Assembly: GCF_037975245.1 (NCBI RefSeq)
Contig: NC_092572.1
Coordinates: forward strand, 8,011,501 to 8,075,500
Length of the DNA stretch: 64,000 bases
From: Apostichopus japonicus
Lineage: Eukaryota > Echinodermata > Holothuroidea > Aspidochirotida > Stichopodidae
Direction of reading: 5' to 3'
The position numbers were made by a program, and so were the translations under genes. Below the pieces are notes generated by a model. That model did not search any database, was not told the origin of the DNA, and was given only the letters and a program-made list of their open reading frames with translations. Of the stretch, positions 894 to 64,000 are shown one piece after another. Positions within the stretch are counted from its first letter, which is position 1; the number at the start of each line of letters is the position of its first letter.

Positions 894-2251
894 ATGATGG
901 GCACTGTTCAGGAAATTGCATTTGCATTTTCATACTCTGCTAAACGAAAATATCACTTTAAACTTGCCATGATGGAGAGCGAAACCGCCTAAGAAAAGAT
1001 GAAGAAAAGGGTTAAACTTAGAACCCTCTGTGAAACTAGATGGAGCAATCGAACTGATGCATTGTTCACTTTTAAATCATCTTTGACGTCGTTGTTGATG
1101 CTTTGGCCGAACTAGAGCTAAATAGTGATTCTAAAGCTCGTGCCTTCTCTTGCTCAATCCTGAAGTTCGAATGTATTGTTGCGTTAGTTGCAGCGGAGAG
1201 CATTCTACAGTACGTTGTTCCGTTATCAAAAATGCTACTACTAGAGGCGGAGCGTCTATACAGTCAAAGGGGCGTATGCCCCCCCCCCCCCAACTTTTTA
1301 CTTATTCGCGATTATTGACTTTTTTATTACGCTCTCATCTACCTGTTGACATTTGTCACATTTGGTTGGTGTAATTTTCTGAAAAGGCGATGACACTTAT
1401 TTATTTTTCGTTTATCTGCAAATTAGCAAGGCCCGGAAAGGGTCATTTCCGGCGATCTAGGGAGTATCTTTACTCACAAAATTTTGCACGCTCCGCACCA
1501 ACCTGTGGTGGCGCTCCGCTTAGATGATGTCGAAAGCGCCCCTGCAGAATATTCTCCCCCCTGATCAATACCCCTAGGTCCGCAACTGCTTCTAACACTA
1601 TGGTGATTGCCATTATGCATATTTAAATTAAAAAAAATCATAATGCATTTCCAAAAATGCATTGCTATATTACATTGTGACTTCTTTATATGCAGAAGCC
1701 ATTTATAGCCTACTATGAATAATGAGTATAGTTTTAATATCCCATAACCTACCCCATCTATTCGTATTTTGACATATTTCATTTGCTTTCATGCATGTAT
1801 CGATCGCGTGTGCAGGGACTTTATAATGATTTCACCTCATTTTGTCTCGAAAGAAAACTTGTTCCTTGTTTCCCAATTTGCACATGTTGGATATTGCAGT
1901 GATATATAGTATGCATTTTTTCCCTGAGGATTGGGGGGGGGGGCGTTGATGGAGTGATGTGTATACGCAAAAAAGATACTATAATAAGAGTTATAAAGGG
2001 TACTAAATATCAGGCTGCATCAGTCCAATCAAATTTCTGCAAAGTGCCCTTCGACGTCGGTGCCCCCCAGATTAAAAGTACTTCCGCCGCCCTTGCTTTC
2101 AGCGCAATGCGCAGAATAAAAAACTGCCTCCGTTCTACAATGAATGAAGAGAGACTCAGCGGTTTGGCACTCATGCACATCAACAGAGACTTTGCAATGG
2201 ACGTTGATTCTGTGCTGAAGAAATTTGCATTAGATGGCAATCGTCGGATAG
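894..2251 (+). pseudogene. Broken hAT-family transposase
   Basis: Three reading-frame pieces resemble ZMYM1/hAT-type transposases. Piece one (894-1092) reads through a region containing AFSYSAKR, meets a stop at about 990, then continues with the family hallmark CETRWSNRTDAL. Piece two, in another frame (about 1085-1235), contains DSKARAFSCSILKFE and VPLSKMLL. Piece three (about 2083-2251) is the C-terminal dimerisation region, with FSAMRRIKNCLRSTM and ERLSGLALMHINRD. At least one stop, one frameshift and a several-hundred-base interruption (about 1242-1950, with a second copy of the hairpin module) separate them, so the gene is dead. In the family this protein cuts and pastes the element by binding its inverted ends. 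Recognition rests on remembered motifs, not a search. Confidence 0.8.
1435..1597 (-). mobile_element. Nested end of a hairpin-module element inside the hAT transposon
   Basis: Read on the minus strand from about 1597, this has a C-poor, G-rich terminus, then a CTAAGCGGAGCGCCACC-like hairpin (1487-1521), then AAAATTTTG, then a CCTAGATCGCCGGAAA block. It is the same order seen at 2500-2640, 27374-27470, 28860-28965, 29350-29449 and 54481-54570. It interrupts the transposase remnant, so it is likely a later insertion. The other end may lie near 1242-1270, where GGGGCGTATGCCCC occurs. I could not find a matching target duplication. Confidence 0.5.
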
Positions 2252-2671
2252 CTCTCGCCTTCTCTTATTATGATAACTTAAACATTTACTTGCCACAGTT
2301 GTATCAAAGACAATTACTGGCTATAGTTGTATCAAAGACATTTCTGGCCTATCTTTGTATCTACAAGTATCAGAAGTTGAAAAGTAAGACTACTCTGTAC
2401 ATGTACCTTGCTAATTTAAATACATTTTGTAGAATTGAATTACGTCCTTTTTTAAATTGTTTGTTTTGGGGGTTTAAAAGTGATATTGAATGAGGTGTCT
2501 CAAGTTAGCAAGAGGCCAGGGAACCAGAGTGAACACTCGGGAAGGGACGTTTCCGGCCATCTGGGGGGTTTGTAAAACCAAAAATTTTCTTGTACGCTCC
2601 GCGCCAACCGATGGTGGCGCTCCGCTCAGATAGTTGTGCCTACAACTTTGAAAATCCTGGCTACGCCCCTG

Positions 2672-41600: not shown

Positions 41601-41867
41601 CTACTCAGAATCACTATCCAAGTTGGTGACATTTTGAATCACACAGGTGATTGCTTCGTTGTCCTTGACAGTCATTTGAGCAGTGAAGGGCAAAAGAGTT
41701 GAAAGAACTGCTTGCCAGTCATCCTCGTCAGTGTTAAGCATTGTCTTTAGTATGTTGACATTTATAGTGACTGTCTCATCATCTGCAAGTAACAGCTGAA
41801 TGCTGTTCTCTTCCTCGTTGTATGCAACTACTTCTTTAGTTAGTGTTTCATTAGGTGGCTCAGTTTT
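41601..41867 (-). CDS. Probable terminal exon of an unknown gene
   Basis: On the minus strand a pyrimidine-rich tract ending in CAACAG (41873-41868) leads into 88 codons ending in TAG. The peptide is acidic, with VVAYNEEENSIQLLLADDE, DEDDWQAVLSTLLPF and a last segment TNLDSDSE. It has the mixed composition of a real protein, unlike the repeat translations upstream. The frame also stays open upstream into a 30-bp minisatellite, so a longer form that translates the repeat is possible. I do not recognise the family. A possible 5' exon lies near 43370-43620 (minus), where a donor-like GTAAAG follows a CG-richer stretch. Confidence 0.5.
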   Translation of the reverse strand, partial: KTEPPNETLTKEVVAYNEEENSIQLLLADDETVTINVNILKTMLNTDEDDWQAVLSTLLPFTAQMTVKDNEAITCVIQNVTNLDSDSE

Positions 41868-41894
41868 CTGTTGCATGAAAGGGAAAGATAATGA

Positions 41895-42720
41895 TAGTTC
41901 CATTAAAGGAAGCATGGAAACGATAATTGGGGACACCGTATTGGCTGAAACGATAATTGGGGACACCGTATTGACTGAAACGATAAATGATGAAACAGTT
42001 GGTTGAAACTATAATTGAGGAATGTATAAACAACAAAAGAAGCAGTACGTATTGCCTGAAACAATTGTATAAGTTTTAGTAAACGGTATTGGCTGACACA
42101 ATAATTGAGGAAACTGTACTAGCTGAAACAATAATTGAGGAAACTGTTTTGACTTTTGACTCAAATGATAACTTGAGGAAACTGTATTGGCTGAAACAAT
42201 AATTGAGGTAACTGTATTGGCTGAAACAATAATTGAGGTAACTGTATTGGCTGAAACAATAATTGGGGATGCCGTATTGGAAACAACAAAAGAAGCAGTA
42301 CTTATTGCCTGAAACAATAAGTAGTAAGTTTTAGTAAACGGTATTGGCTGACAAAATAATTGAGGAAACTGTACTAGCTGAAACAATAATTGAGGAAACT
42401 GTACTAGCTGAAACAATAATTAAGGAAACTGTTTTGATTTTTGACTGAAATGATAACTTGAGGAAACCGTATTGGCTGAAACAATGATAATTGAGGAAAC
42501 TGTATTGGCTGAACGATATTTGAGAAAACCGTATTGGCTGAAAAGATAATTGAGAAAACAGTATTGGCTGAAATGATGATTGAGGAAACAGTGTGGACTG
42601 AAACGACAAGATAATTGAGGAAATCGTATTGGCTAAACTGATAATTAAGGAAGCAGTATTGGCTGAACCGATAATTGTAGAACAGTTTTGGGTGGAAAAA
42701 TACTTGGGGAAACAATCATT
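41895..42720 (-). repeat. 30-bp minisatellite with a ~250-bp higher order
   Basis: The unit is close to 'ggctgaaacaataattgagg' plus 'aaactgtatt'. About 25 copies of varying fidelity are present. A longer phrase beginning 'caacaaaagaagcagtac' repeats at about 42032 and 42283, so blocks of units were also duplicated. Because 30 is a multiple of three, several minus-strand frames of 92-135 codons stay open with a 10-residue period (FPQLLFQ-like). These lie upstream of the probable exon at 41601-41867 and most likely are intronic. Confidence 0.9.
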
Positions 42721-43969
42721 GAAAAAAGAATAAAACGAAATAATAATTCAGACAACAACTTTAAGAATCAGCAATATCAAACAATTCAATCATTAAACTG
42801 GGGGCCAATCAAAAGTAGGCCTATACCTAATCTGAAAAAGTATTTAATACCGGTAAGCCAATCTAGGTAGGCTATGCTGAATGAAAAAAGGACCATTTAA
42901 AGAGTACTATAACGAAACAACTGTTATAAATTGGAACCTGGTAATATTTAAAATTAAATATTTAATTTGCCTTGTTAGAGGCTACTGAAATAGTGAATAC
43001 TATCTGCAGCACATGCCTACACAGTTAGTTACGAATTAAGGCTGTAGTACAACCCTTTACATATATACACGAGTTGTACAACGACTAAACCGAGTACCCC
43101 TATCAGTGTCAGTTTAATACTATGTAACTGTTCGGACTGCAACTTGTTGTAGAATAGGCCTACTGTTCTAAGGTAGGCTACCGATATGTACGCCAACAAA
43201 GCCTAACGTTAGGCATCAAAGAATTAAGAAACTAGCCTAGGCCCCCTAAATTTGTTCAAAGTATACGGAACAACAGTTCTTATCGTCCAACCTGTTGTAC
43301 TCTAGGCATGATACTAACTATTCATAAAAGAATAATTATATAATTCACCTTTACTTGTCTCCAATTCTGCCCTCCGTGATGTCTGCAATCAGTAACACCA
43401 GTTCATTCAAACGTACACTTCTCGACGTACAACCGCGTAAGCACGTACACGATATGCACGTAGGCCAATACTGTAGTCAGTCACACAAGGTCCGTGGACG
43501 CGGCCCATGCACGTACATAACATACACAACAGTACTTTCTTCCCAGGGCAGTAATTACAAGATGACGAAACTCAGTTCTCGAGATCAGTCACCTTGATCT
43601 TGCGGATTAATTTGCAATAGTATCGACTTTGGCTTTTGAATATGTTTCATATCCAACATGCTTTAATGAATGTTAGTTATGTTTATTGAATAATTCGTTG
43701 AATTCTTGTAGAATTTGTTATTTCTTGCATAGTTTTTTGTACTAGTATGAATCCCCTGGAGCACTACTTTTTGTTTACGCGCAAAATCGGACAGTTATCC
43801 GCCCCAGCAAACAAAGATTTGCAAATTTGGAAAAGTGTGTTTTTCCAGCGCGGCGGACTTGTGAAATCGAAATCTGTTTAGAGCGCCAATGTGTATGTAC
43901 ACAAAGCATCCAGTTAAACAATATCTGAAACCAGCCCTGCAGGTTGATCAGTCAGGCAACAAATGCCAA
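42721..43969. other. Non-coding stretch, possible minus-strand first exon
   Basis: 43370-43620 is richer in CG dinucleotides and, on the minus strand, ends in a donor-like CAAGTAAAG near 43352. It could be an untranslated first exon for the gene ending at 41601. The remainder shows nothing recognisable. Confidence 0.3.
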
Positions 43970-47600: not shown

Positions 47601-49860
47601 CCGTAGCCTACGGGATAGGGTGGACAAGGGGAGCTGTCCCCGTGAGATTTCCTCGTTCTAAATGAAAGTCGCCCTAAGATAATGTGAACGCCTGGACAGT
47701 ATGCGTTATATCAGTTAGTTTCAGCGAAATGATCAAATCAGTTCTTCTGATTTCAATAGTCCATATTGTGCAGACTCAATATTCTAGGCACGTATTGTAG
47801 GAATGACTTTCATATGAATACAATGTTTATTTAAATCACTCATTACGTACATGCACAATCTCGGATGCGACGAACGTGCGTTTGGTTTGGTTGGAATACA
47901 AATAAACGTAGAGAGTTCATAATATTTATCCTGCGCGACCAGTGTATAGTCTAATGTAAGACTATAAATCATGAATATCTTCATTACATCTTGATGCATG
48001 ATATAGGCCTATCCGTTTGATTGATAGCCCTTTTATCAGTGCCCAAATGTTTAACTAATAATATTGAGGCAAAGTCCCCTACACATCCTACCCACTAAGC
48101 TCATTTACCTCCACTCTGCATATAAAGGTTACGGATACCACAGAATCCTCTAGAGTGATTTTTTTTTTAAATATTCAATTACGTGTTTATACATCAATGA
48201 ATAAAACAGACCTTATTAAGACACGTAACGGCCTATTTTCCATACAAAATTATTTTACCGAATGCTTAATTCATATTTTGTTTGTCAATTTCCAGAACAT
48301 GAGATCTCAACATTTAGAAAGTTTAGATGTAAATAGTAAGGCCTAGGAATTCATGGGTTTGTATGTGCCTTATAAAGTGAATGTGCCCAGAAACCCCAGT
48401 AGAATATGTGATGTGTAATGTTGATACTATATGTGTACATGTCGTAGACATCTGTATAGGAATATTATTTCCTTCTTGTGTGCTAAATTTAAGAATGTTT
48501 CCAATTTTGTTTAGGTTCCAAATGTATTAATCATAAGAAAATCTCTAAGTTACACACGGATGCTACATTGATAAGTCTTCTTTTTTTTAAATCTAGTCCC
48601 TTGTCATATGTGCCTATTGTTAAAATGTATTTGTGACTGACATGTCCAGTCAGGGATCAACAGAAGCAAATTTCTGGATGTGAATCCACCCCTTGTGCCC
48701 CCCGGTTGTTGATCTTCGCATTAACAATATGTGCCTTGTGCATCCTGGAGTGAATCCACATTCATAGTAAAAAGTTCATCAAACAGTCGCTTATGAGGTC
48801 TTTCGGATCGGATGATCGCAACAACAGTAGCAACGCTTACGAAAACTTTACAAACTCTATATATTACGTAACATCGTGTCTCCATAAAGTTCCCGGTATA
48901 TTGGACATACGTTTTGAGTAAGGTAAATATCACTTAAATCTGATTAGAGTTACATGTCTTTTGGAAACAATCCCTTTTTCATTTTCCTTTCTCTGTAGAA
49001 TTTTAGTACTCGAATTGTCGCAGGCGATGTCTTCTCACATTTATGTACTAAAAACGTTACATTACGTTGAGATGTCTTTCGGCCACAATTCATTTACCCA
49101 TTTTCCTTTCTCCGGGTTGAAGTTTGGTACGCTCATGGCAGCAGGTGATTTTGTAGTCACAGTATATACCCTGAACTGATCTATTCTTTGCTAAGCAACT
49201 GAAAAAAAATGTAGAGAAGGTGTGTTATTAGTAATTTGAAACATGTCTATACATGAAAGCACTTCATCGTGAACCGAACCAACTAAATTCGATGCCCATA
49301 GCATATTTTGCAACTTAGTGATTTTTTTTATAAACTTGAAAACAGACCGTTAAAAAAAATGCAATAACCCTAAATCTAATGCACATACAAAAATAGTTTC
49401 TGTATCTTGTTATTGTATGTTATGAAGAAAGATCAAATTCAGATTATCACTCACTTTTTATCTTCAATTCCGTCGAAAGAACTCCTATATTTTTGTCTTC
49501 TTGAAGATCCCTCGGTAACGAACACTTTACGAACCTTAATTAGAAAATATCAAGAAATAAATCTATAATATATCAAGCCAGGATATGTTAAAAGAAGCAG
49601 CACTCGTCTACAACGCAGCCCTCCGGAAAACTGGATAAATGTAGGAAATTGAATACAAACCGAAGAGCAGCAAACATACCCAGAAAAAGAAGGAAAAGAA
49701 CAGAGCCAATAAATAATTTGATACACCATACCATATAGCAGAAACGCTGAAGCCAATGTCGGTGCACAGTTTCTGAAACTTTTACCTTGTGACCACGCCT
49801 TGCACAAGATATTCAACAAGAAAATAAATTAATGTAATACGTTCTTTGCTCCTTAATCCG
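44637..49860. other. Anonymous AT-rich sequence
   Basis: No supported exon. A G-rich run lies at 45487-45508. 44099-44165 (just before the Ig relic) resembles 50339-50421, marking a dispersed repeat. More LRR exons of the receptor gene could be expected here on the minus strand, but I found none with convincing splice sites and leucine pattern. Confidence 0.45.
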
Positions 49861-49864
49861 CTTC

Positions 49865-49867
<3 letters not shown>

Positions 49868-49915
<48 letters not shown>

Positions 49916-49960
49916 TTTATATTTATATACATATATTTATATATATATATATATATATAA
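49868..49960. repeat. (TA)n microsatellite
   Basis: Two TA tracts (49868-49906 and about 49937-49959) are separated by a 30-base imperfect part. A further TA/ATA run is at 50561-50605. Confidence 0.95.
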
Positions 49961-49974
49961 AGTTGGTTGATTGG

Positions 49975-50190
49975 CGTCTATCTTAGCGCAGAGTGCTTAT
50001 GTCCGGTGGACAGAGCGAAATATATGTTGAGCCTAGTTGAGACAAGTGGAACACTAGTGTTCCAAGTGTTCCACTTGTCTCAACTAGTCTCGATAGTAGT
50101 TATCTAGTCTCGAGATTCGAATCCCGGTTGAGACTGGAATCTTTTTCACAGTTCTTGATTTACCAAATCAGTACGGTTTTCATTGATAAT
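49975..50190 (+). mobile_element. tRNA-derived SINE copy, interrupted
   Basis: An A-box-like TAGCGCAGAGTG (49984) and a B box GATTCGAATCC (50114-50124) are followed by 'gagactggaatcttttt' and a 'cttgatttacca' body. The boxes are about 120 bases apart, too far for a working tRNA promoter, because a perfect inverted repeat occupies 50033-50087. The body matches the copy at 50440-50590. Confidence 0.6.
50033..50087. repeat. Perfect 23-bp inverted repeat with 9-base loop
   Basis: Arms 50033-50055 and 50065-50087 are exact reverse complements (core AAGTGGAACACT). The 9-base loop, AGTGTTCCA, repeats part of the right arm, so the structure probably arose by local template switching. Confidence 0.95.
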
Positions 50191-50439
50191 TGTTCATTTG
50201 CCTCTTTCGTTTACCTCCAATTCATTAACATAAAGTCTGTTCAAAGTATCTCTTTAGAAATACGGCTTAAGGAATCACAACTGATTTCGAGTTGGTCAGC
50301 ATCATGTGTGGTCTCTGGAGTAAGGCAAAATATGTCACCAAAAACAGGACTAGTATTGTTCGATACAGGTGACAAACGCCTACAGTTGAATTACGACCTT
50401 CCTTGCCGGTTTCGAACCTTTGGACATCCAATCAGCGTC

Positions 50440-50558
50440 CATAACCTATAGTGTTTAGGGTTTCCGCGTACAGAGTGGGGTGCCCGGGTTCGAGTCCCGG
50501 TGGAGGCTGGAATTTTTCCACTCTGCTTGATTTTCCAACTCGATACTAATTTTCATTA

Positions 50559-50590
<32 letters not shown>
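50440..50590 (+). mobile_element. tRNA-derived SINE copy
   Basis: A strong B box GGTTCGAGTCC (50487-50497) is flanked by CCCGG on both sides, as in a tRNA T arm. It is followed by 'gaggctggaatttttcc' and 'cttgattttccaactc', the same body as the copy at 50101-50190, and by a TA-rich tail. The A-box half is decayed. A reversed B box (GGTTTCGAACC) at 50411-50421 suggests another, minus-strand copy abutting it. Confidence 0.7.
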
Positions 50591-50604
<14 letters not shown>

Positions 50605-50703
50605 ATATGTAAAGATAGAAAAAGTCCAAATTTACCAAGACAACGAACGATAAAAACTATTCACATTTTGCGGATGATTATAACGAAGTATTATCAAACG
50701 TTC

Positions 50704-53700
50704 TTACTGTAAATTTTCTGGACATTTTTGATTAGTAAGGCTGTTGATGATTGATGTGAATTGGCTGTCGTTGATGTTCATTTCTAGAAATTGCAGGGTC
50801 TCTAATGAGGGCAGTGTAACGTCTTTTATGAAGTCAATAGCACACTCTTCTCTAAATGTCATACCTTTTAGTTTTACCTGTTGGAAGACAAGTAAATGGA
50901 AAGACTTTAATTACGATATATTTCCATGTTGAATAACCCAAAGAACAAAACCCAACAATTACCACTTATTGAGGTATATCACATTAATGGATGTCATTAA
51001 TGTAAATTAAAATGAAGTTTAGTTAAAACAAATGGTCAATCAAATTACGTTACCGTATAGGATTACAGGATATTATATTTGTTTGTACATGTATCAGGTC
51101 ATATCAAAAACGATATAGAGAACTTCCATTGTGTAGTGAAATATGTTAATTTGATAACATGTTTATTGTAGGCAATCAGTAAGTTTATTAAACCAGCTTA
51201 GGGATCATTTTTCGTCAAGCTGAATTAATTATTGAACAAATATTCAAAATTAGATAAACCACATTTTTTTAAATAAATTGAAACAGTTTTCACTACTTAC
51301 ATCACAAGAGTTGCAAGCATCGCAGAAATCTGCTAAAGCAACTCTGTGATGTTTCCTGTCAAGATGCTGTATGTGAATCGTCGTATCTCTCCAAAATATA
51401 ATCGTTCTTTTGCTCATATCTTTGATAATTGTTCGCTTCTTCTCGAGATTACCTATTTCATAAATACAGTCGATCAAATTGTTCCACATTTGATGTTCCT
51501 TGAGAGTTTGTACTGTTTTATCCAATCTGGCATGATTCATGCCGAACATAAACTGTAATAACCTGATCGTTGCATCGTCAGTACTCTTTTTTATAAATTC
51601 ATCCATCCACGCCCACTTTTTATCACTTTCTGGCACATACTGAGCAGCTAGAAATTCCTGAAAGAATTCATGATAAAACATGATTCCAGTATAGGATGAA
51701 AAAGCCAGTTCTTCTAATTGACTTCCTCCGCTTCCTACTTTCTTTGAATACTTGAGCAAACCTACAGCTAAGGCAAGTTGGGTATCTGTCTTACCAAGTT
51801 TATTGTTCCAATACTCTCGTTTACCCAATGAAAGGCTCATTTTGTTCTCAAATGCTATTTTACCAAGTTTGTCTTTAAGACTCTTAATATCTTTTTGAAT
51901 GGACATTTTATTAACTTTCTGCACGTATCGGGATTCCAAACAGGTTATCACTAATCTTATTATTGTTGTCAGTTTGTTAACATTCACTTCTTTATATTTC
52001 CCTGTTGGATCTAACATTCTGCATGTAATTATATGAATAATCATAATCAGCAAAAGGGGTGTTTCAGAAAAATTCTGCGAAATTTCATTTAATTCCATAC
52101 ATTCAGTAACGTTTTTTGAAAGTATTTCCAAAGGATAACAGGCTTCCGGGGTCTGCACGTCGTTTCTTGGAACAGTGCTACCTTTCTGCTCTAATTCTCC
52201 TTGCTTTATCTCGTGATGAGTAGCGGGAATTAACTTTGTTGTTACATTAGCTGACAACTCTTCTGCTGTCATGTTACTTTCATTTGCTTCGTTGTTGGCA
52301 TGTGAATCTATCTTTTCGTCTTTCATTTCTCCCTTTTGAAGTTTTCCCACATCAACAGTTTGTCTTTCTTCGGTTGTGTCTTGTTCTTTCTCTTCCGTGG
52401 TTTGCTTAATTCCTTCGTTAACCTCATTTATATATTTTTCATTCTTCTCCCTATTCATCGGATTTTCATACTTAACACTTTCGGCTTTGTTACATCCTCC
52501 CTCTGTCACCGGCCGGCTGTCGTTATTTGTCATTTTTATTTCAATCGTCTCTTGGTTGTTTTCATCCGATTTGGCTTGTTGTGTGACGTCTAACTTAGAG
52601 TCTTTCATATTTGATTCTGGGATCATGGGTAGTTGGGGTATTGCTCGTGATTTAAAATAATATTTGCAGGTTTTATAAATGTACTCATTGACTTGAGGAT
52701 CACTGAAACCATTCAATTTTACATTTGAATACGGTAGTGCAAATGAAGCCTTCATGTCATCAACTTCACGAGACGTTACCCAAACCTTAATATTTTTAAA
52801 CTTAAAAGTGTTTATTTTATCATCGAGTAAATGTCCGACCGTCAGATTAGCATCATTATCACCCTCCTCTTGAATGAGATTGTCACGTTCTTCTTTATCG
52901 TTAGTAGGATTCTCGGCAGAAGTATTGGTACTAATCGTTGACATCGATAGCTCATCAAGCCCATCTAAGAGTACTAGAAACTCAAAATTCAGCAATATTT
53001 CAACAATATCGTCTACCGACAAATCAATTCCAAGAGGCATCATTTTCTTAACAAGTTCGGAAAGTATCATCGAGGGATCAACCTCTTTAAGGTGAATATA
53101 TATTAGTATAGGCTCACTGATTTTATCCTTACTGCCTTTTTTCGGAAGTTTCATCCTCGATACCCAATCGCTAACCAGGTGTTGAGTGTAGGTTGTCTTC
53201 CCGTAACCTAAATCTGCTATAATGAAGACCCGCTTAGTATCGAAATTAAACTCCGGTGTAGACAGAAAGTCGCTAGCGTGATGACTGACGTGACCGTTTG
53301 CGTTAGTGACGGTGCACTGGCATGTAGTGTAAAGGGCATGTATCGGTATTGGTTCACCCCACGGTAGCGGTTTGATGAAACAAAATTTCTCGTAGTACTT
53401 CTTCAGCCCTTCCACTAAAGTATTTCTCATCTCTAAAGAAAAACAATAAAATATTCAATGACTGCCAAGATTGTACAACGTTATGATATTATTACAAAGA
53501 ATGATATCAATAAGTAAGATATTTATATTTTGCAATAAAACTTGATATTACAGGCAGGGATGTCATCAGCAATAAACATGAAACTTTAATGTCATGAATG
53601 CTGTATGTATCAGGCGCGTATCAAGGACTTTCTCATCCTGGGGCACGAATTAGCGTACAATAAAATTTCTGGTTTTGATATCCCCCCCCCCCCAGATCAC

Positions 53701-55889
53701 CGGAAAAGGCACTTCTCGGGCTTGAAAATGACCAAACAGTTGTACAATTTTGCCTGAGAACCAAGAATTTCCCAATAATTATTTTCATCCATAACCATTT
53801 TGAAGATTGTCACCAGTCACACATCATGTTCGACCTCATCGCATCTCCTGTGGATCATTGCTTTTTGTAGGTGATTCTACGTCGCGGCCCATGGTACCCG
53901 TAAGCCCAACTTTTCAAGGTTTTTAACCCATTATCTGTTCAGAATTTTTTCTATAAATTTATTTATGGACAACCCACATAGAAAAACCTCCTTCAACCCC
54001 TAACAGACAGGTCAAAAATGCACGAGTAGGGCGAAGTATGATGAAAAATGTTGGTCAAGGAATTTTCGGAAATTCAGACACAGTTAATTTTATGGTGTAC
54101 AAATATTAATACCTCTTATAACGGCTACTATGAAACTTCGTTGAAGGAAATGAAACAAATACCAGATATTTCCGAAATCGAACACTACACACATAGACAG
54201 TTTTGAGGTTGTTCATCCCGGAACGCCATTTTCATGCTCACTGATATGATGTGATATCTGCTGTTTGCTTTACAAATTCCAATAATTGAAATGAGACTGA
54301 AATAAATAACTTGTATCTGTTTATTGTGCAATGCCCCACTAGTGGCGCAACGATGAGCCTAGGGGGGTCCTGGTCCAAAGGGGGCCCCCTATCAGAAGGT
54401 CCAAGTAATGGCGTCCGCAGAAATATATACAAGGGGGAAACCAGCAGGTCATGTTGGTGTAACACATTACTTGATACTGTCTAAGCGGAGCGCCACCATC
54501 GGTAGGCGCGGAGCGTAGGACGATTTTCTTTTGCCAAAAAATACTCCTAGATCGTCGAAAAAGACACTTCCCGTTCAAGTTGCATATACAGATCGTTTAT
54601 TTTGAGATCTCATGTCTTAGGATTTTGACTTTCAATAATTTCAGTAATGCATTATGGGTCCGTATTCAATGAACATAACTAGAGAATTGTTGGTTGGGTG
54701 AAATCATTGAAATGTCAAATGCTTAATCTTTTTTTCAATATTTGGTTATCCAGGGGGGGGGGGGGAGCAAGTGACCCCGCCCCCTACTGCATGGAATATA
54801 ATGGAAACTACTGTACAATTACAGTAATCAAACCTAAGCATAGGCCTAATTTCGGCTGAAGCTTTGTCTCCATCTAAGCCTACTTTCATGTGCTTTTCTA
54901 CTTACCAGATACACCGAAGGCATCTTTATTCGTACCTTTTATTATTATATTTATATGTAAGCCCTGCTCTCTTTTTAAATGAACGCAGTTTCAAGTCTGT
55001 GGGGTGTTGGAAAAAATCATAAGTCCCGAAGTTGTACTCAGTACAAAATTGGCTGGAATTGTGTTTTAAATTATATACTTTGTTTTCATTATAATAATAA
55101 ATAACACAACTAGCTCGATAAATACATTTATACCCAATGGGCCCATGATCATGATGTCCGTATTCCGTATCACGTGAACATATGTATATTGTCTTGTTCA
55201 GTCTTACATGAGTTTTTCTTTCCCAGTAAAACTGGCCCTCCCTATCCAAAGAGGTACCCTTTTCTGTGCATCAGTATAACGGGGCCCCCTTTTTGGTCGG
55301 GGCCCCCGGCCCAGCACGGTCCGAGCCCATAGGAGTTACGCTACCGTGCCCCACATTCTTTTCATTTCGAAAGACGAACAATGTCAAGTTCATTACACAC
55401 TGAAGGCTTCAATTCTCTATATGCCTTCAGTTTAGTGTTCTTGGGATTTTTATCCCTAGATATTGCTAGATATCCATACAGTACAGTGTCCTTGGGATTT
55501 CTTGGGATTTTTCGGGGCGTGATCTTGGGAAATTGCAAAAGCGGGAGTGGTCACACTCCATGTAGGTCAGTGCACGACCTCTAGACGTCACTAACACACA
55601 ACCAGAGCACTTGTTATCGTTGAAGTGGTGTGTTGCCGTATTTTGTCAAGGTCGTGGTACTACGGGCGAAGGTAATTAATTAAGTTTCATCGGGAAGCGA
55701 TTAGAAGGGTGGGACGTAGGATTGCGGGGCGCGTTTTCCTGCAGATGGGAACAATCTCAAGAAGTGATGGGTGCGTCCGCTCTCCCCCTCCCCCCCCCCC
55801 CGCCCATGATACGCCCTTGGATCCACTACATGATATTCACAGGAGATGTGCTTAATTCTCCGAACGATTCATTGTAGGAGTTATATAGT

Positions 55890-55940
<51 letters not shown>

Positions 55941-58900
55941 TGAGAGAGGAAAAATGGAAGCGTCAAAAATGGAGTTGTCGATGTAAGGGGTAGGGTTCGG
56001 CGCACGCCCCTTCCGAAATCCTCGATCCGTCACTGGCTACCCTGTGTATATTATAGGGATCAGCGTTGTAATTATTACTGTTCCTCTTTCTCTTCCCGGT
56101 GTCTTCGCGTTTATCTTCTACTCCCTTCTTTTCTCCCTTTTCTCTCTTTCTTCTTTTTCTTTTCCCTTTCATCCTCTCCTGCCTCCCTTTTTTTCCATCT
56201 TTTTTTTCCCCGTTTTCCTCTCTTTTTCATTTCTCTCCTCTATTTCGTGTCAAGTCTTCAGGCATTGGAATAATAATGTTAATGAAATTATAACGTACCT
56301 TCAAGGGGTTTCTTCTGCTTCGGTTTTGTCTTCTGCAATTCCTGATATAAAAACAGAGATGGAATTTACTCAAACAAATGGATAAACAGGAACACAATGT
56401 GCACAAAAATAATGCAGAAATAAAGATATAATGTCCTTCTTACCACGTATGGACCCGGAGTTGCGATCGGTAAACCCGTACCTAAATAAACAAAAAATTA
56501 AAATATGGTCGATCAATTATTGTGGCTTTGATATTTTAATGTTCATTGTTTATTAACAGAGAAATATAATGCAGCTTTTTGTAATGAATCATTCTTTATA
56601 TGATTATATAAAGGGATATTCAAATGTCTACCGGCAGCTATTGCAGGATAATACATGAACGACGGTAAAAAGTGATGCGCAAGGCGCGTCACTTGCGTGC
56701 ATCCTGTAATAGCATTATACCTCCGGTCATTCATAAACATCAAATTTCATCTGAAAATGTGACAATATTTTGTAAACTTCAATGAAAAATAAACCAACAA
56801 TGTTTTCAAACGGTGCGAAGAAGTTTTCTACTTTATTATAGTTAACAGTTTCAAAACAACGTAAATGCGCAAGTTAAATAACAAAAATGACAAAATGACA
56901 TAAATGTATGCAGTACGCTGAATAACAAGTTACACAAGAAAGTTAGTCTGGATCTGACGCAAGGTATACTATACTTGCATCTTCTTCTGTACAAACAGCA
57001 AGCTATGAGGACGAATATTACAACAGAGACGAATATAATTCCAATAACGACGAAGGTCCTGGTGGCTTGACCGTTAGGGCTACTCGTGGGTTCTATGAAA
57101 GGAGGTTCTTTGCAGGCTTCTGAAACGACATAATCAAGACAACGAGGGTTGTACACGTCAAGTTACACAACCTTGCAAGTATAAGGGTTACGGGAGAGGA
57201 ATTAAATAAAGACATATCTGAGAGCTACGCCTTTCCTTTGTAACTGGCCACAATTGCGTTGTTATAATAAACACGCTTTAAATGTGAAGAATGCCTCCCT
57301 CCCCATACTAGTTGTACGCTGTCGAAATTACATTTTTCATTGGCATATTCCCATGGAGACCTGACACAAGACAAGTCAAAATCCAAGGTTCTTACACCTA
57401 TAGTTATAGAATAATTTGCTATCTGCTAATTATTTAATCTATAGGTTTGCTTGTCCAAAGACCAATAATTTCACTATTGCTTAGGGTATTCGTTTTGCCC
57501 TCATTGTGGATATAGTAAAATAAAAACGTGTATTGCATTTCATTGCTGGCACAGATGTCTACCTAATGTGTCAAAGTTAATGGCCTCTAAATGCCATTAA
57601 GACATAACTATACATATAGCTTTGCATTATGTATGTTCAAAACGTGTACGTATTTCAATTAAACTGTAACAAAGTAAATCTTAATGGAGCTTTGCAATCA
57701 ACATATTACTTCTGTAAACTCAACAGATTAATTATAAACTGTAAAAGAAGAGCATAGAAAATGGTGCAATAAATCAGCAATACCATCACGAAATTTGAAA
57801 GTAGGCATATATCACGTTACCTGTATTTATCCTAACAGTGCTGTAGTAAGTGTAAAGGAGAGGAACAAATGTAGTGTCTGACAAAGAAGCCATGCATCTG
57901 AAAGTAGCATCTGCTCCACAATCAGGTGTTGTGTATTCAATGGTTTTCTCAGTGTACCATCTGTCACCCATTTCTTTATGAGTTTGCTCTTCTTTAGTGA
58001 AGCTCACTCCAGACTGGTTAGTTACAATCCAGTCTACGTCCATCATTGGTCGAGAGCCATTCACATAACAAGTAAGTGATCCAGAAGTAATAACGTTCAG
58101 TTGACATCCAGTACAGGTCGAACTACATGCATCAATCAGTGGGCACGGAGAATCGGGACGAACTGTATAGAAGGATAGTTTATATAACATGCTAACTAAA
58201 CATCTAAAGGAAAAACACTCTTGTAATATCAGTATGGTGTTTCCACCAGTGTGGTCAATAATGTACTAATCGAATGGATAAGTATAGGACTATGATTAAC
58301 CAACTCATTGGAACCAAATAAAGTACTTCTTAGTATATGTATTTGTCAAGTTTTTGCCAAAGGTTTGCTCATCCATTTTCTCATATATTTTGTCCCTTTT
58401 TCTTGAAAAAAGGGTTACTTTAATTTAATTTTTGAAGTTGTACGCAAAACCAAATAATTACTTTGTTGCCTCACCAAGCTGTATCTACATACCAAGTATG
58501 AACTTCAACAACAATGCACTTTTTTAAATTACCGTATTTGCAAGGTTTTCAGAATTCGACATATGTTGACTGCAAATGACGTTGGTGACATCCACCAATT
58601 TTAAGGTTCTTGTACTCACCAAGGGGGATAAAACACTAACTATGAACTTCAATAAAGATATACTTTTTAAGTTATCGTGTTTAAAATGTTTTCATACTTT
58701 TATCTCTTGACCTCTGTTTTTAAGTCTTTCGTATTGATTTGGAAGATATGGCCCAACGTATGATGTATAAACATATGAATTCGCATTTGATATGCAATAT
58801 TGGTCTTTATTTATTGCAAGATATTTTGTATGATTAATAAATTTTCACAGATAGAAGCTGAATCTCAAAAAAGAAATCGTAAGTTGATAGCTTGCCCTAC

Positions 58901-61900
58901 AGTAATGATGACTATGTGTTTCATTATCAACCTTATTTACATTCACCTTGAATATTTATGAAAAAAAATACTAAAGGAAATTAAATTGCACCTGCATCGA
59001 GTGGCATTATGATATCATGCATTGCGAATGTTCAATAACCTTATATCTCCTGAATGGAGCAAAACTTTGCTTATAAAGTATCGGAAATTCTTAGCCACAG
59101 AGATATCTATCTTGTAAGCTAAAACAAATTGGGTTGAGTTTGCTTTTCCTTAAATATCGTCAAAAACTGGATAACTTTATCGTATACATGTTTCTTTTCT
59201 AATTATACTTTTATTAAAAGCTAAATGTTCTCATCAATGTTATAACTTTAATCAACGTAGCTCATACCAATACTTACTGTACACTTGCAGTTCTGTTGTA
59301 GTTGTATCAGAGTCAAATTCATTAAAATAAACTATTAACGTGTATTTTCCTTCGTGCTTAAGTTCTGTGTTGGTTATTTTCAAGGATTTGTTGTCGGTAA
59401 AGCTGTACTCCTTATGCGGGGATTTTTCTCCTTCGTCGTCAAAAGAAAGTATTGGAAAAGTACGCGTATCTTCACCTTTAAACCAATACACATAATATTG
59501 ATCACCGATAACGTTACAGGCAATGATGTACGGCTTGCCTAATTCTGCGAAATACACGCTGTCACAGCTAATACTTTCTGCTCCTGTAATGAAAACATAT
59601 TGTTACGGAAATATATCAAACTTAAAACAATGTGTCGTATGAAGTGTGATCATGTTATATGAAATACATCCGTGCAAACGATTGATATGGTCATGTAAGA
59701 TATTTTGACCTTGTATGGTACAGGTGGTGTGACATTGTTAGAATAATTAAATGCGCACGCTCCCATCCCCATCGTCAGTCGGGAGAAATGGTTCTGCAAG
59801 GGGAAATCGTTCAGCGGGAATTTTTTACAGCCGGGAAAGAATCAGAAGTATTTGCTAACTTCAGAGTCACTTATGTAGACCTAATTTTTAGTCTTATTAT
59901 GCTTCAAAATGGAAGCGATGGCTGCTGTAATAAGAGGGGCGAGTTACATCTCTTTACAGTCTTCGATGCAATGAGCGGTGGTTTCAGGTAGGCTTGGCAT
60001 GGTTATGGGCTCTGTGATATAACATTATATTAAGTAGACACAGTTAAGTATCCTAGACTTTGGTTATGCAGTAGATATGTACATTTTAGAAGCCAAAGGT
60101 ACGTGACGAGAGTACCTTAGGTTGGGCGACTTATGTACATAATTACCCTCACTAGAAGTGCATTCGTTGTAAATTAATTTAAGAGTTCCTTTAAAATGGC
60201 AACCCAGATTTTGAGGAATTTTAATACGAGTTAAAGTGTTGCGGGTCATATTTAACAAGTTAGGTATCTATTTAATTATATGAAGTACTGAAAACTAAGT
60301 GGAGCAGTCATGCAACCGCTTTAAGAACGCTATAAACATATTTCGTGCCGTCAGGGGGCAATATAGGTATGTATAATTGTTAACAATTTTAATGACCAAT
60401 GCCTTCGACATTGTGCAGGCACTGTGTGTAAATGGCTCAGTAAGGATTTATTCATGTGTTATTTAATCGTTTATAACTTAAAATGTCTGTATCCATTTGG
60501 GGGAAATGGTATCTGTTGGTAAGTTTTTTTTTTCACGTAACAGCGTCGATCTCTGGTAAGTAGGCTATATAGATTATTTGGTGTATAGCAATTTTTATTA
60601 TTTGGTGTATAGCAATTTGTTGGGCCATCATTTTTAACTGCTAAACAAACCATCAACGTGGATACGTTTTCTCCGCTCATGGTCAAAACATTTACATTCA
60701 GTTCGATTTTCCATTATATACAAATTTAATCCATTTTGAACTCCATGAAATTACTTCTGAACTGCGTCATATAAACCTGTTACATCATTTACCGTTTTAT
60801 CATAATAATTTAATATATACATATACGTTCCAATTATATCCCAGTCGTATAGCATTGTCATGTCCTTAAGACTAGAATTACCTCCTTAACAGTATTCAAT
60901 CCCTTCCATCAACCTCACGTTCTTTTTAAAAACGGTCGTTCAAATAAGCAAATTATCAGTGACTATTCCTGTGCTCTCTTGGTAAAGTACATGAATGCAG
61001 TTTGTTTTTATAGATTAACGTCTCATGATAAGTTACTGTTGGGTATTTACCATCTCATAGTATTTCTGTCCAATTATTCTGTTGTATATGCAGAAGTATA
61101 TGAATGCACTTTGTTTTTACATATTTACTGTCTCATGACAAGTTTACTGGTGGGTATTTATAATCTCATAGTATTTCTGTCCAATCATTTTGTTGTTTAT
61201 ATACAGAGGTATATTTATGCAGCTTCTTTTTATTGATAAAAGTCTCATGACAAGTTTACTGTTGAGTATTTACAATCTCATAGTATTTCTGTCCAATTAT
61301 TCTATTGTATATGTAGAAGTATATGTATGCACTTTGTTTTTACAGATTAACTGTCTAAAGACAAGTTTACTGCTGGGTATTTACATTTTTTAGTGGATTT
61401 TCTGTCCAATTATTCTATCGTATATATGTAGAAGTTTATGTATGCACTTTGTTTTTACAGATTAACTGTCTAATGACAAGTTTAATGGTGGGTATTTGCC
61501 ATCTCATAGTATTTCTGTCCAATTATTCTATTTTATATATGCAGAAGTATATGAATGCACTTTGTTTTTACAGATTAACTGTCTAATGACAAGTTTACTG
61601 GTGGGTATTTGCCATCTCATAGTATTTCTGTCCAATTATTCTATTTAATATATACAGAAGTATATTTATGCACTTTGTTTTTACAGATTAACTGTCTAAT
61701 GACAAGTTTACTGGTGGGTATTTGCCATCTCATAGTATTTCTGTCCAATTATTCTATTTTATATATGCAGAAGTATATTTATGCACTTTGTTTTTACAGA
61801 TTAACTGTCTAATGACAAGTTTACTGGTGGGTATTTGCCATCTCATAGTATTTCTGTCCAATTATTCTATTTTATATATGCAGAAGTATATGTATGCACT

Positions 61901-63968
61901 TTGTTTTTACAGATTAACTGTCTAATGACAAGTTTACTGGTGGATATTTACCATCTCATAGTATTTCTGTCCAATTATTCTATCGTTTATATGTAGAATA
62001 TATGAATGCACTTTGTTTTTACAGATTAACTGTCTAATGACAAGTTTACTGGTGGGTATTTGCCATCTCATAGTATTTCTGTCCAATTATTCTATTATAT
62101 ATATGCAGAAGTATATTTATGCACTTTGTTTTTACAGATTAACTGTCTAATGACAAGTTTACTGGTGGGTATTTACATTTTTTAGTGGATTTTCTGTCCA
62201 ATTATTCTATCGTATATATGTAGAAGTATATGTATGCACTTCGTTTTTACAGATTAACTGTCTAGTGACAAGTTTACTGGTGGGTATTTGCCATCTCATA
62301 GTATTTCTGTCCAATTATTCTATCGTTTATATGCAGAAGTATATTTATGCAATTTGTTTTTACAGATTAACTGTCTAATGACAAGTTTACTGGTGGGTAT
62401 TTGCCATCTCATAGTATTTCTGTCCAATTATTCTATTTTATATATGCAGAAGTATATTTATGCACTTTGTTTTTACAGATTAATTGTCTAATTCCAAGTT
62501 TACTGGTGGGTATTTGCCATCTCATAGTATTTCTGTCCAATTATTCTATTTTATATATGCAGAAGTGTTTGTATGCACTTTGATTTTACAGATTAATTGT
62601 CTAAAGACAAGTTTACTGCTGGGTATTTACATTTTTAGGGGATTTTCTGTCCAATTATTCTATCGTATATATGTAGAAGTATATGTATGCACTTCGTTTT
62701 TACAGATTAACTGTCTAGTGACAAGTTTACTGCTGGGTATTTGCCATCTCATAGTATTTCTGTCCAATTATTCTATCGTTTATATGCAGAGTTATATGTA
62801 TGCACTTTGTTTTTACAGATTAACTGTCTAATGACAAGTTTACTGCTGGGTATTTGCCATCTCATAGTATTTCTGTCCAATTATTCTATTTTATATATGC
62901 AGAAGTATATTTATGCACTTTGTTTTTACAGATTAACTGTCTAATGACAAGTTTACTGGTGGGTATTTACCATCTCATAGTATTTCTGTCCAATTATTCT
63001 ATTTTATATATGCAGAATTGTATGTATGCACTTTGTTTTTACAGATTAATTGTCTAATGACAAGTTTACTGGTGGGTATTTACCATCTCATAGTATTTCT
63101 GTCCAATTATTCTATTTTATATATGCAGAAGTATATGTATGCAGTTTGTTTTTACAGATTAACTGTCTCATGACAAGTTTACTGTTGGGTATTTACCATC
63201 TCATAGTATTTCTGTCCAATTATTTTGTTGTGTATATGTAGAAGTGTAGTTCCCTAAATTTGTTTTTTTGCTCCCTTATCATTTTTGTCCTCTGTTCTGG
63301 GGTACCTCGTGTCTTACCTAAGTTGATAACTTCATGTCATAACTTTGCTTGTTGTGTATTTAACGTAATCAATCATTTGGGTACATTGTCATTGAAAAAA
63401 AAAATGAATTTCATTGACACATGTACGTACTCTCGAAAACTCGACAAGCTATATATGTAGAAAGGTGTTCAATATATCGATTATTTTGAAGCACAACAAA
63501 AACAAAAAAGGAATGTGGAAATACTTGAAACCAGAATGGACTTCGTATACTATAATTTAAGCAAATTTGATAGATAAATTTACACTAATTGCAATGCAAA
63601 TTCCGTTGGTGAGTACTAAACAAATACCAAGATAAACGTAACAAATTCCTGAACTCTTAAGTGGAACATTATATACAGTTTTTCTAAAAAAAAATATAAC
63701 AATGCACATTGTCAATACATCATCACAACATATAAACATTTTCTGGACTCCAAGATATTCTTTCGATTATGGTTAACATTATCATTTTAATCCAAGCGAG
63801 CACTTAGCTTTGCCCTCTCTGCAGGTTAGGGATGACAATGTCTTTGAAAGCGAGGCATTCACACATAATTTAGTTATACTGATTTGAAATATACGTACCC
63901 CCTCTACTAAGTGATGTCGCTAAAACTAAACCTAGGATAACAACCGTTGCAATACTCAGTCGATCCAT
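50704..63968 (-). CDS. Predicted membrane Ig receptor with cytoplasmic NACHT ATPase (whole gene model)
   Basis: Eight exons on the minus strand give a protein of 1027 residues to the end of the NACHT exon, or 1084 if exon 8 ends at its TAA. Order: signal peptide (1-23), Ig-like domain 1 (24-125), Ig-like domain 2 (126-239), membrane span (about 262-282), short basic tail with a YVEL motif (290-316), NACHT module (317-1027), LRR-like segment (1028-1084). Introns 1 to 3 are phase 1, the usual phase for secreted Ig exons. NACHT proteins are ATP-driven oligomerising switches, mostly cytosolic immune sensors. Here the switch would be tethered to a receptor at the plasma membrane. That reading is inference from the joined frame. 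The weak point is the exon 4 donor; using the better GTATAG (56974) would put a stop in exon 6. The alternative is two adjacent genes, one for an Ig membrane protein and one for a NACHT protein. Confidence 0.75.
50708..50877 (-). CDS. Receptor exon 8, LRR-like
   Basis: A clear acceptor (TGTCTTCCAACAG) precedes it and phase 0 matches the end of the NACHT exon. The peptide contains LPSLETLQFLEMNINDSQF, a leucine-rich-repeat spacing, then TSIINSLTNQKCPENL. LRRs usually follow NACHT in NLR proteins. After 170 bases there is a strong donor (ACA|GTAAGAAC). Reading on past it gives CAG and then TAA (50706-50704). The exon may therefore be the last one or may splice to LRR exons I did not find. No AATAAA is seen close behind the TAA. 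Confidence 0.7.
51301..53432 (-). CDS. Receptor exon 7, NACHT NTPase
   Basis: The largest open frame of the window, about 710 codons in one exon, bounded by an acceptor (TTCTTTAG, ending 53433) and a donor (GAT|GTAAGT at 51300). Within the exon's own numbering from its first Met (53430): an N-terminal basic region, with PLPWGEPIPI at 21-30; Walker A ADLGYGKT at 72-79, where the usual first glycine is alanine; Walker B FLVLLDGLDE at 151-160; sensor VTSR at 218-221; winged-helix region with FYHEFFQEFLAA at 585-596, typical of NLR proteins. Two polar insertions interrupt the core: about 162-197 and, larger, about 262-430, rich in Glu, Lys, Asn and Thr. The family binds and hydrolyses ATP to switch oligomeric state. 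No CARD, DEATH or pyrin domain precedes it; instead short exons and a membrane span lie upstream. Confidence 0.95.
53614..53740 (+). mobile_element. Fragment of the hairpin-module family in intron 6
   Basis: Reads GGCGCGTATCAAGG, then 'aaaatttctgg', a C-run and AGATCACCGGAAAAGGCACTT, the conserved end-block order, without the hairpin. No opposite end is recognised. Confidence 0.5.
54340..55346 (+). mobile_element. hAT-like element in intron 6, 8-bp target duplication
   Basis: The 8-bp repeat TGCCCCAC flanks it exactly (54332-54339 and 55347-55354). The left end TAGTGGCGCAACGATGAGCC and the complemented right end CGGTAGCGTAACTCCTATGG are similar, and both continue through GGGGGCCCC blocks for ~60-70 bases. 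The hairpin module is at 54481-54518, 141 bp from the left end. A G-run lies at 54752-54765. No transposase is visible. It sits between receptor exons 6 and 7 and would be removed on splicing. Confidence 0.85.
55886..55937. repeat. (TA)n microsatellite in intron 6
   Basis: About 50 bases of TA dinucleotide with one ATAAATA interruption. Confidence 0.95.
56080..56250 (+). repeat. Pyrimidine-rich tract in intron 6
   Basis: About 170 bases of almost pure C and T on the plus strand, hence purine-rich in the receptor transcript, beginning ~50 bases after exon 6. The two 64- and 113-codon plus-strand frames here are Ser/Phe/Leu translations of the tract. Triplex formation or an effect on splicing of exon 6 is possible. 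Confidence 0.85.
56299..56341 (-). CDS. Receptor exon 6, lysine-rich cytoplasmic linker
   Basis: 43 bases between TATATCAG and GTACGT. In phase 0 it reads ELQKTKPKQKKPLE plus one base, which joins in frame to GAG-ATG at the NACHT exon. In phase 1 it would hit a TGA, so the phase set by exons 4 and 5 matters. Short and inferred from splice signals only. Confidence 0.6.
56444..56481 (-). CDS. Receptor exon 5, short cytoplasmic exon
   Basis: 38 bases between TTGTTTATTTAG and GTAAGA, both good splice signals. In the phase that keeps the whole gene open it encodes TGLPIATPGPYV, and with exon 6 makes PYVELQ. A Tyr-x-x-Leu of this kind is the core of ITIM/ITAM-type or sorting motifs, but one copy alone is weak evidence. 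Its small size makes the call dependent on the frame argument. Confidence 0.55.
56970..57119 (-). CDS. Receptor exon 4, transmembrane segment
   Basis: Acceptor TGTCGTTTCAG. After a proline-rich stalk (EPPFIEPTSSPNGQ) a span of about 21 residues, TFVVIGIIFVSVVIFVLIAC, is followed by CLYRRRCKY, a stop-transfer signal placing the C-terminus in the cytosol. Two donors compete: GTATAG at 56974 and GTATAC at 56969. Only the second keeps exons 5, 6 and 7 in one frame. Use of the first would give a truncated receptor ending in exon 6. Confidence 0.85.
57821..58162 (-). CDS. Receptor exon 3, Ig-like domain 2
   Basis: 342 bases, phase 1-1, with acceptor CTTCTATACAG and donor CAG|GTAACG. Encodes residues 126-239. 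The canonical Ig cysteines are C157 (GSLTCYVNGS) and C215 (ADATFRCMAS), with core W170. Two N-glycosylation sequons are visible (NGS at 160, NQS at 174). The N-terminal part carries four more cysteines (132, 138, 142, 145) and another lies at 207, so extra disulphides, perhaps to a partner chain, are possible. Extracellular, ligand unknown. Confidence 0.9.
58450..58760 (-). repeat. Decayed dispersed modules in intron 2
   Basis: Two blocks with 'actatgaacttcaa', 'ttaagttatcgtgttt' or 'ttaccgtatttgcaagg' resemble the modules at 37441-38260. The remainder of this intron (58163-59277) shows nothing recognisable. Confidence 0.5.
59278..59583 (-). CDS. Receptor exon 2, Ig-like domain 1
   Basis: 306 bases, phase 1-1, with acceptor GTTTTCATTACAG and donor ACA|GTAAGT. 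Encodes residues 24-125. The domain has C46 (YIIACNVIG), core W57 (YVYWFKGED) and the late-strand motif LKHEGKYTLIV, where the second canonical cysteine is replaced by leucine 106. C30 near the start (SISCDS) could pair with C46 instead. V-type length fits. Joins in frame to the signal-peptide exon on one side and to Ig domain 2 on the other. Confidence 0.88.
59584..60974. other. Intron 1 of the receptor, unique part
   Basis: No further Ig exon with paired splice sites and a YxC motif was found. 60582-60622 holds a 20-base phrase repeated back to back ('atttggtgtatagcaattt'). Confidence 0.5.
60975..63245 (+). repeat. 20-copy tandem array, 113-bp units, in intron 1
   Basis: The phrase 'ttactggtgggtattt' recurs every 113 bp from 61031 to 63178. 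Units contain 'catctcatagtatttctgtc', 'caattattctat', a TATATATGCAGAAGTATAT block and 'tgcactttgtttttacagat'. Three units (near 61380, 62175 and 62628) share a variant with 'acattttt' and 'ggattttctgtc', hinting at block duplication. Plus-strand frames of about 60-115 codons recur with the period because the unit has few stops; they are not genes. The array lies antisense within the first intron of the receptor gene. Confidence 0.97.
63899..63968 (-). CDS. Receptor exon 1, signal peptide
   Basis: ATG at 63968-63966 is followed by MDRLSIATVVILGLVLATSL, a typical signal peptide: a basic residue, a hydrophobic core and small residues near the cleavage point. The exon ends with AGGG|GTACGT at 63898 in phase 1, which matches exon 2. 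Only 32 bases of upstream sequence are in the window, so the promoter is not visible. The 4.3-kb intron that follows contains the 113-bp array. Confidence 0.78.
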
Positions 63969-64000
63969 CTTGAGCAAATCTAAAAAATCAAGAGAGGATC

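Follow-up and report, generated by a model that had tools for sequence, protein, structure and literature searches.

In a 64,000-nt stretch of the genome of the sea cucumber Apostichopus japonicus (contig NC_092572.1; hereafter, the window), we have delineated a gene of ten exons on the minus strand (63968-49191), whose product is probably a pattern-recognition receptor, a type I membrane protein of the holothurian Ig-TM-NACHT kind (i.e., immunoglobulin (Ig) domains, a transmembrane (TM) span and a NACHT module, in this order), and probably works in the way proposed below. The encoded protein has a signal sequence and an Ig ectodomain, a span between Ig and NACHT, and a NACHT module with intact nucleotide-switch motifs in the same polypeptide, with neither CARD nor LRR amongst its Pfam matches; it belongs to a family of paralogs that have diverged unevenly along their length. 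This order of domains has already been published, and the gene is a further member of that receptor kind.

Exon 1 (63899..63968; phase 0 to 1, donor GTACGT) carries the start codon and the signal peptide, a hydrophobic N-terminus (KD19 hydropathy of 1.87 at residues 3-22) encoded separately from, and ahead of, the V-set exon. The latter, exon 2 (59278..59583; phase 1-1), specifies the first Ig domain (Ig1; residues 38-124), and exon 3 (57821..58162; phase 1-1) the second (Ig2). Exon 4 (56979..57119), which ends in a GC donor (GCAAGT) and was delimited by the splice match to the NCBI protein model, encodes the stalk and the membrane span, while the small juxtamembrane exons 5 (56444..56481; 38 nt) and 6 (56299..56341; 43 nt, basic) are placed by their joining phases and by the same model. 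A pre-NACHT helix, the NACHT domain, a long acidic insert, HD1, WHD and further helices are all specified by exon 7 (51301..53432), as assigned from Pfam, the alignment and the structure model; exon 8 (50708..50877; donor GTAAGA), supported by tblastn, the structure model and the NCBI model, encodes the tail. Exon 9 (49455..49534) and the coding part of exon 10 (49191..49198; stop codon TAG at 49193-49191) again follow from the splice match. Introns 1, 2, 3 and 4 are all in phase one; the exons for Ig1, Ig2 and the span are therefore symmetrical (1-1) modules, as is usual for shuffled extracellular domains.

The support for this gene structure comes from the NCBI model and from the paralogs. 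The joined exons match an A. japonicus “uncharacterized protein” of 1109 amino acids (here, P0001) with 100% identity and query coverage; when splice choices were enumerated against P0001, a single combination in the scanned ranges reproduced it exactly. A preliminary description of the locus had proposed one gene on one strand, joining a signal peptide, two Ig domains, a membrane span and NACHT; eight exons are indeed in frame and match P0001. The exons that it named are real: acceptor and donor sites are present, the phases join, and 1027 codons are open through exon 7 with zero internal stops. Its limits at 56481-56444, 56341-56299 and 53432 stand, but exon 4, which it ended at 56970, ends nine nt earlier in the NCBI model (56979). 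Carried through exon 8, its join yields 1084 residues and a stop with no internal stop; that terminal stop (50706-50704) is, however, intronic, since exon 8 ends at 50708, and two more exons, outside the span described, run to 49191. We rejected a division into two genes (exons 1-6 and exon 7): the joined protein matches one NCBI model, and the proteins P0002-P0005 are 69-80% identical to it across 99-100% of its length. The join of Ig and NACHT is not due to chance, because one database protein matches the whole query and another ten models from A. japonicus align with the joined protein at 69-80% identity over 29-100% of its length.

Three Pfam families score above their cut-offs: V-set (29.7 bits; cut-off 26), I-set (25; cut-off 23.7) and NACHT (29.4; cut-off 26.7), the last at residues 385-572. 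Ig2 is sub-threshold in Pfam (C1-set, E = 0.035) and is assigned by fold, on the basis of predicted strands at residues 143-238, in a block with pLDDT mostly of 55-69 and dips to 33, and of structure matches that span model residues ~24-239. The single strong membrane span lies at residues 262-280 (KD19 of 3.32), directly followed by CLYRRR. The protein differs from canonical tripartite (effector-NACHT-LRR) NLRs, such as vertebrate NLRC4, NLRP3 and NOD2, in having a span and a V-set Ig ectodomain instead of CARD or PYD, and neither CARD nor another death-fold effector nor an LRR is present amongst the 13 Pfam families matched at E up to 1. The tail encoded by exon 8 (residues 1027-1094) alternates strand and helix and resembles a few LRR-like units, with no Pfam name.

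The predicted fold of the NACHT core matches NLRC4, NLRP3 and NOD2 in a structure search and has the NACHT-HD1-WHD-HD2 arrangement of STAND/NACHT NTPases; from the NACHT exon, NLRP3 and NOD2 were reached by profile search only. Sixteen aligned proteins all have G389, GKTT, LLDGLDE and the histidine of the WHD. The intact Walker A, Walker B and WHD motifs suggest, as far as sequence can tell, that the nucleotide switch is kept under constraint. An acidic low-complexity insert (residues ~577-745, within exon 7; pLDDT below 30) separates NACHT from HD1 in the A. japonicus clade of P0001, and is short or absent in the Holothuria proteins, P0015 and P0018.

Three protein searches, in which shared words were needed for a match and the third of which was capped at 7998 candidates, returned 29 proteins amongst the matches listed; 21 of these are from A. 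japonicus, four from Holothuria leucospilota and one from Ruditapes philippinarum, the latter matching in NACHT only (E = 1.5e-6) and devoid of a strong span. Of the remaining three, two likewise have no strong span, and P0012 is similar to the Holothuria proteins. A search elsewhere for the same order of domains had been proposed in the preliminary description, and the order recurs in A. japonicus paralogs and in H. leucospilota. A strong membrane span is present in 23 of the 29 proteins (the six others being P0011, P0017, P0026, P0027, P0028 and P0029), and is followed within eight positions by at least one basic residue in all 23; the hydrophobic N-terminus is kept in 16 of them. Eight relatives scanned in Pfam all include NACHT, and five include V-set at E up to 0.01, with three of these exceeding the cut-off for V-set. 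For 13 A. japonicus models out of the 21, the longest contig listed has one and the same length (34,621,101 bases), suggestive of a single chromosome. Within the window there is no second copy of the gene: a tblastn screen with the first 18 retrieved proteins (E up to 1e-3) matched only 63968-48953.

Exon 5 includes a juxtamembrane tyrosine motif, YVEL, which reads YVEM or YMEM in P0003, P0007 and P0010 and is lost in P0002, P0004, P0006, P0008 and P0009. YxxM is the pattern of a PI3-kinase site. Near the membrane it occurs in only three of the ten A. japonicus models P0001-P0010, while the YQSM of the other clade sits in the pre-NACHT helix; judging from the motif, the juxtamembrane YxxM may be such a site, and we leave it as a lead.

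The divergence amongst paralogs was compared over 15 pairs from six full-length A. japonicus models. The identity in the signal peptide and Ig1 ranged between 37 and 97%, as against 75-91% in Ig2, NACHT and the post-NACHT part. Three types of Ig1 occur amongst the six models (P0001-P0003; P0004 with P0006; P0005), and the remaining chassis does not follow these types. Opposite to the general trend of Ig1 diverging most, P0001 and P0002 are identical at 121 out of 125 sites (97%) in the signal peptide and Ig1 and at 760 out of 959 sites afterwards (Fisher p = 7.7e-8, for sites that are not independent). In the 5′ part, with P0003 as the third sequence, 18 sites unite P0001 and P0002, versus 2 and 2; in Ig2, 4 sites do so, versus 11 and 7. 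The NACHT and post-NACHT part rejects a clade of P0001 and P0002 only weakly (p-AU = 0.045), and Ig2 does not reject it (0.091); the tree evidence for a mosaic is thus mixed, with inner branches mostly unresolved. As P0001 and P0002 share only the 5′ part, an exchange of 5′ exons between paralogs is suggested as the simplest reading of these sequences. Tentatively, and as something possible rather than probable, we propose that these may be germline-diversified surface receptors: neighbouring genes would trade the exon of their outermost Ig domain, through conversion or the swapping of exons, on a near-uniform Ig2-TM-NACHT chassis, and every chain would have an intracellular switch of its own.

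Two sea cucumber proteins are published precedents. The preliminary description knew of no well-characterised receptor with this domain order; AjNLRC4 (GenBank MN607598; PLoS Pathog 2021, 2025) has the same order and was tested in coelomocytes. As described by its authors, AjNLRC4 sits on the coelomocyte membrane, and its Ig part binds several bacteria, lipopolysaccharide, peptidoglycan and mannan; upon infection with Vibrio splendidus, it dimerises, which is ascribed to the Ig domains, and is internalised, while its NACHT part binds β-actin (Kd of 5.87 µM) and its knock-down lowers phagocytosis (PMC8699970). In a later study (PMC11932488), the internalised receptor was linked to MLKL cleavage and, through its Ig domains, to caspase-1. 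The preliminary description envisaged a receptor that would oligomerise inside with no adaptor; the partners published for AjNLRC4 are β-actin, through NACHT, and caspase-1, through Ig. According to its published description, AjNLRC4 is like the present gene product in coming from the same animal and in having two outer Ig domains, a span and an inner NACHT, with no CARD and no LRR. Its published coordinates differ, with the span at 483-503 and NACHT at 600-757 (versus 262-280 and 385-572 here), and only ~20 residues separate its NACHT from the next hydrophobic helix where our gene specifies a long insert; the insert and the two-Ig ectodomain set the P0001 clade apart from those coordinates. 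We also considered whether the two are one gene and rejected it: seven oligonucleotides of PMC8699970 (six of them primers or qPCR primers, the seventh an siRNA strand) show at least 6-10 mismatches on both strands of the window, i.e., no match beyond the background of shuffled controls (5-10 mismatches; one shuffle per oligonucleotide), and none of the translated oligonucleotides fully matches any of the 29 retrieved proteins.

The second precedent, AjNLR-new (PIK48001.1; 1197 amino acids; J Biol Chem 2026), is described as a sea cucumber protein in which, as in the present gene product, Ig and membrane segments are combined with NACHT at the C-terminus (PMC13133943). Ig V-set NLRs have furthermore been reported in Chiridota heheva (Commun Biol 2022), amongst six NLRs “with other domains”; neither a span nor a function is described in the relevant part of that report. 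Sponge NLRs (Dysidea avara, Amphimedon) are reported with transmembrane segments, as here, but in the relevant passages their immunoglobulin domains are paired with TIR, not NACHT. The gene characterised here is not named in the accessible text on AjNLRC4, AjNLR-new and the C. heheva V-set NLRs.

AjNLRC4 was reported to have a second transmembrane domain (776-795) directly past its NACHT (PMC8699970). In P0001, the next hydrophobic stretch past NACHT is a helix that starts with TPLLL, with a KD19 of 1.55 versus 3.32 for the true span. The motif of this helix occurs in 27 of the 29 proteins (KD19 of 1.27-2.07), including P0027, P0028 and P0029 (1.53, 1.27 and 1.48, respectively), three NACHT proteins that lack a strong span, and it corresponds to model residues 772-787, within the stretch aligned to NLRC4. 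Because of the low KD19, the presence in span-less NACHT proteins and the NLRC4-aligned position in the model, the published second transmembrane domain of AjNLRC4 is probably a buried HD1 helix of the NACHT module.

We propose that the distal V-set domain, Ig1, would be the variable face of the receptor, turned towards microbes or another ligand, and that Ig2 would serve as a conserved stalk, with one span to anchor the protein and the NLR-like NACHT-HD1-WHD core in the cytosol. Binding of a ligand would cluster the receptor, and the clustered NACHT core would become an assembly platform and a link to the cytoskeleton; the output would most likely be the promotion of phagocytosis, as in AjNLRC4. 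We infer ligand, topology, clustering and ATP dependence for this receptor, and the output is carried over by analogy.

Several observations weigh against this proposal. AjNLRC4 is a different gene, set apart by its published oligonucleotides and coordinates. The structure model is weak overall (mean pLDDT of 59.2; pTM of 0.51), and a single-sequence search of the PDB with the NACHT exon gave three weak matches, none to an NLR. Variability extends beyond Ig1, to the stalk with the span, the juxtamembrane part and the insert (mean identities of 64.7, 55.3 and 65.6%, respectively). The first glycine of the P-loop is replaced by alanine (residue 386). Finally, the opposite topology, NACHT outside and Ig inside, was published in 2026 for the relative PIK48001.1, from TMHMM and cell-binding tests in its favour (PMC13133943). 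For the present gene we hold this reversed orientation to be very improbable: its hydrophobic N-terminus, in an exon of its own before the V-set exon, is signal-peptide-like, and the basic residues after the span occur in all of the span-bearing proteins. Judged from its description, the Ig of AjNLR-new, “within two transmembrane domains”, has the look expected of an uncleaved signal peptide, and its topology might be explained likewise if the first span were a signal peptide.

The alanine in the P-loop also fits a different role of the NACHT core, which would then be a scaffold for the cytoskeleton and not a switch driven by ATP, brought to actin by ligand-driven, Ig-mediated dimerisation, with a minor role for the nucleotide. 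The ascription of AjNLRC4 dimerisation to Ig domains and the binding of β-actin by its recombinant NACHT part (PMC8699970) fit this idea, as does P0003, which is without the conserved Arg after TS (“TSLE”); the invariance of the other switch motifs in the 16 aligned proteins speaks against it, and we regard it as doubtful. It is unlikely that, besides the full receptor, the locus gives a second and shorter product, an Ig-Ig-TM form ending in intron 4. Past the GC donor, read-through of this intron stays open for ~43 codons, and there is an AATAAA at 56837, downstream of exon 4, but the same strand has 34 instances of AATAAA or ATTAAA in 48000-64000, so that one in intron 4 means little. Still another reading is that of a decaying copy, with the C-terminus cut short and the receptor no longer working. 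P0001 stops early in exon 10, and just downstream, in another frame, tblastn finds two stretches in tandem that resemble the paralogs’ C-terminus (49178-49077 and 49048-48953, minus strand), unread in the NCBI model, which stops just upstream. The other ~1000 codons are open, however, with the motifs intact and the difference confined to the last few dozen residues, and the paralogs P0006 and P0009 are likewise short at the C-terminus; we consider decay quite unlikely, and retain the type I receptor with a NACHT switch as the preferred reading.

Much of intron 1 is filled by a 113-bp satellite (60985..63245; ~20 copies, 90% matches; a 453-bp period was called too), which has no part in the protein. 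Elsewhere in the window, tRNA genes and Rfam families number zero, and seven of the 16 open reading frames (ORFs) of at least 120 amino acids, scanned against Pfam, gave no match at the curated cut-off. The ORF at 1906-2490 (plus strand) matches the dimerisation region of hAT transposases below the threshold (E = 0.032), and overlapping ORFs at 41601-42747 (minus strand) are built of SANTVSPIIV-type repeats.

Our analysis provides an exact exon map, with corrected ends, for one member of an experimentally approachable receptor kind that would combine sensing outside with an inner NLR core. In view of the hydropathy comparison, the published topologies, both the two-span and the reversed one, should be rechecked; if the reading of exon exchange is true, the published second transmembrane segment would be a buried HD1 helix that was misread, and the reversed topology would come from a misread signal peptide. 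With Ig1 variable and the chassis uniform, it becomes testable whether an extracellular ligand can fire a NACHT from the membrane, and whether animals without antibodies diversify their surface receptors by exchanging one exon.
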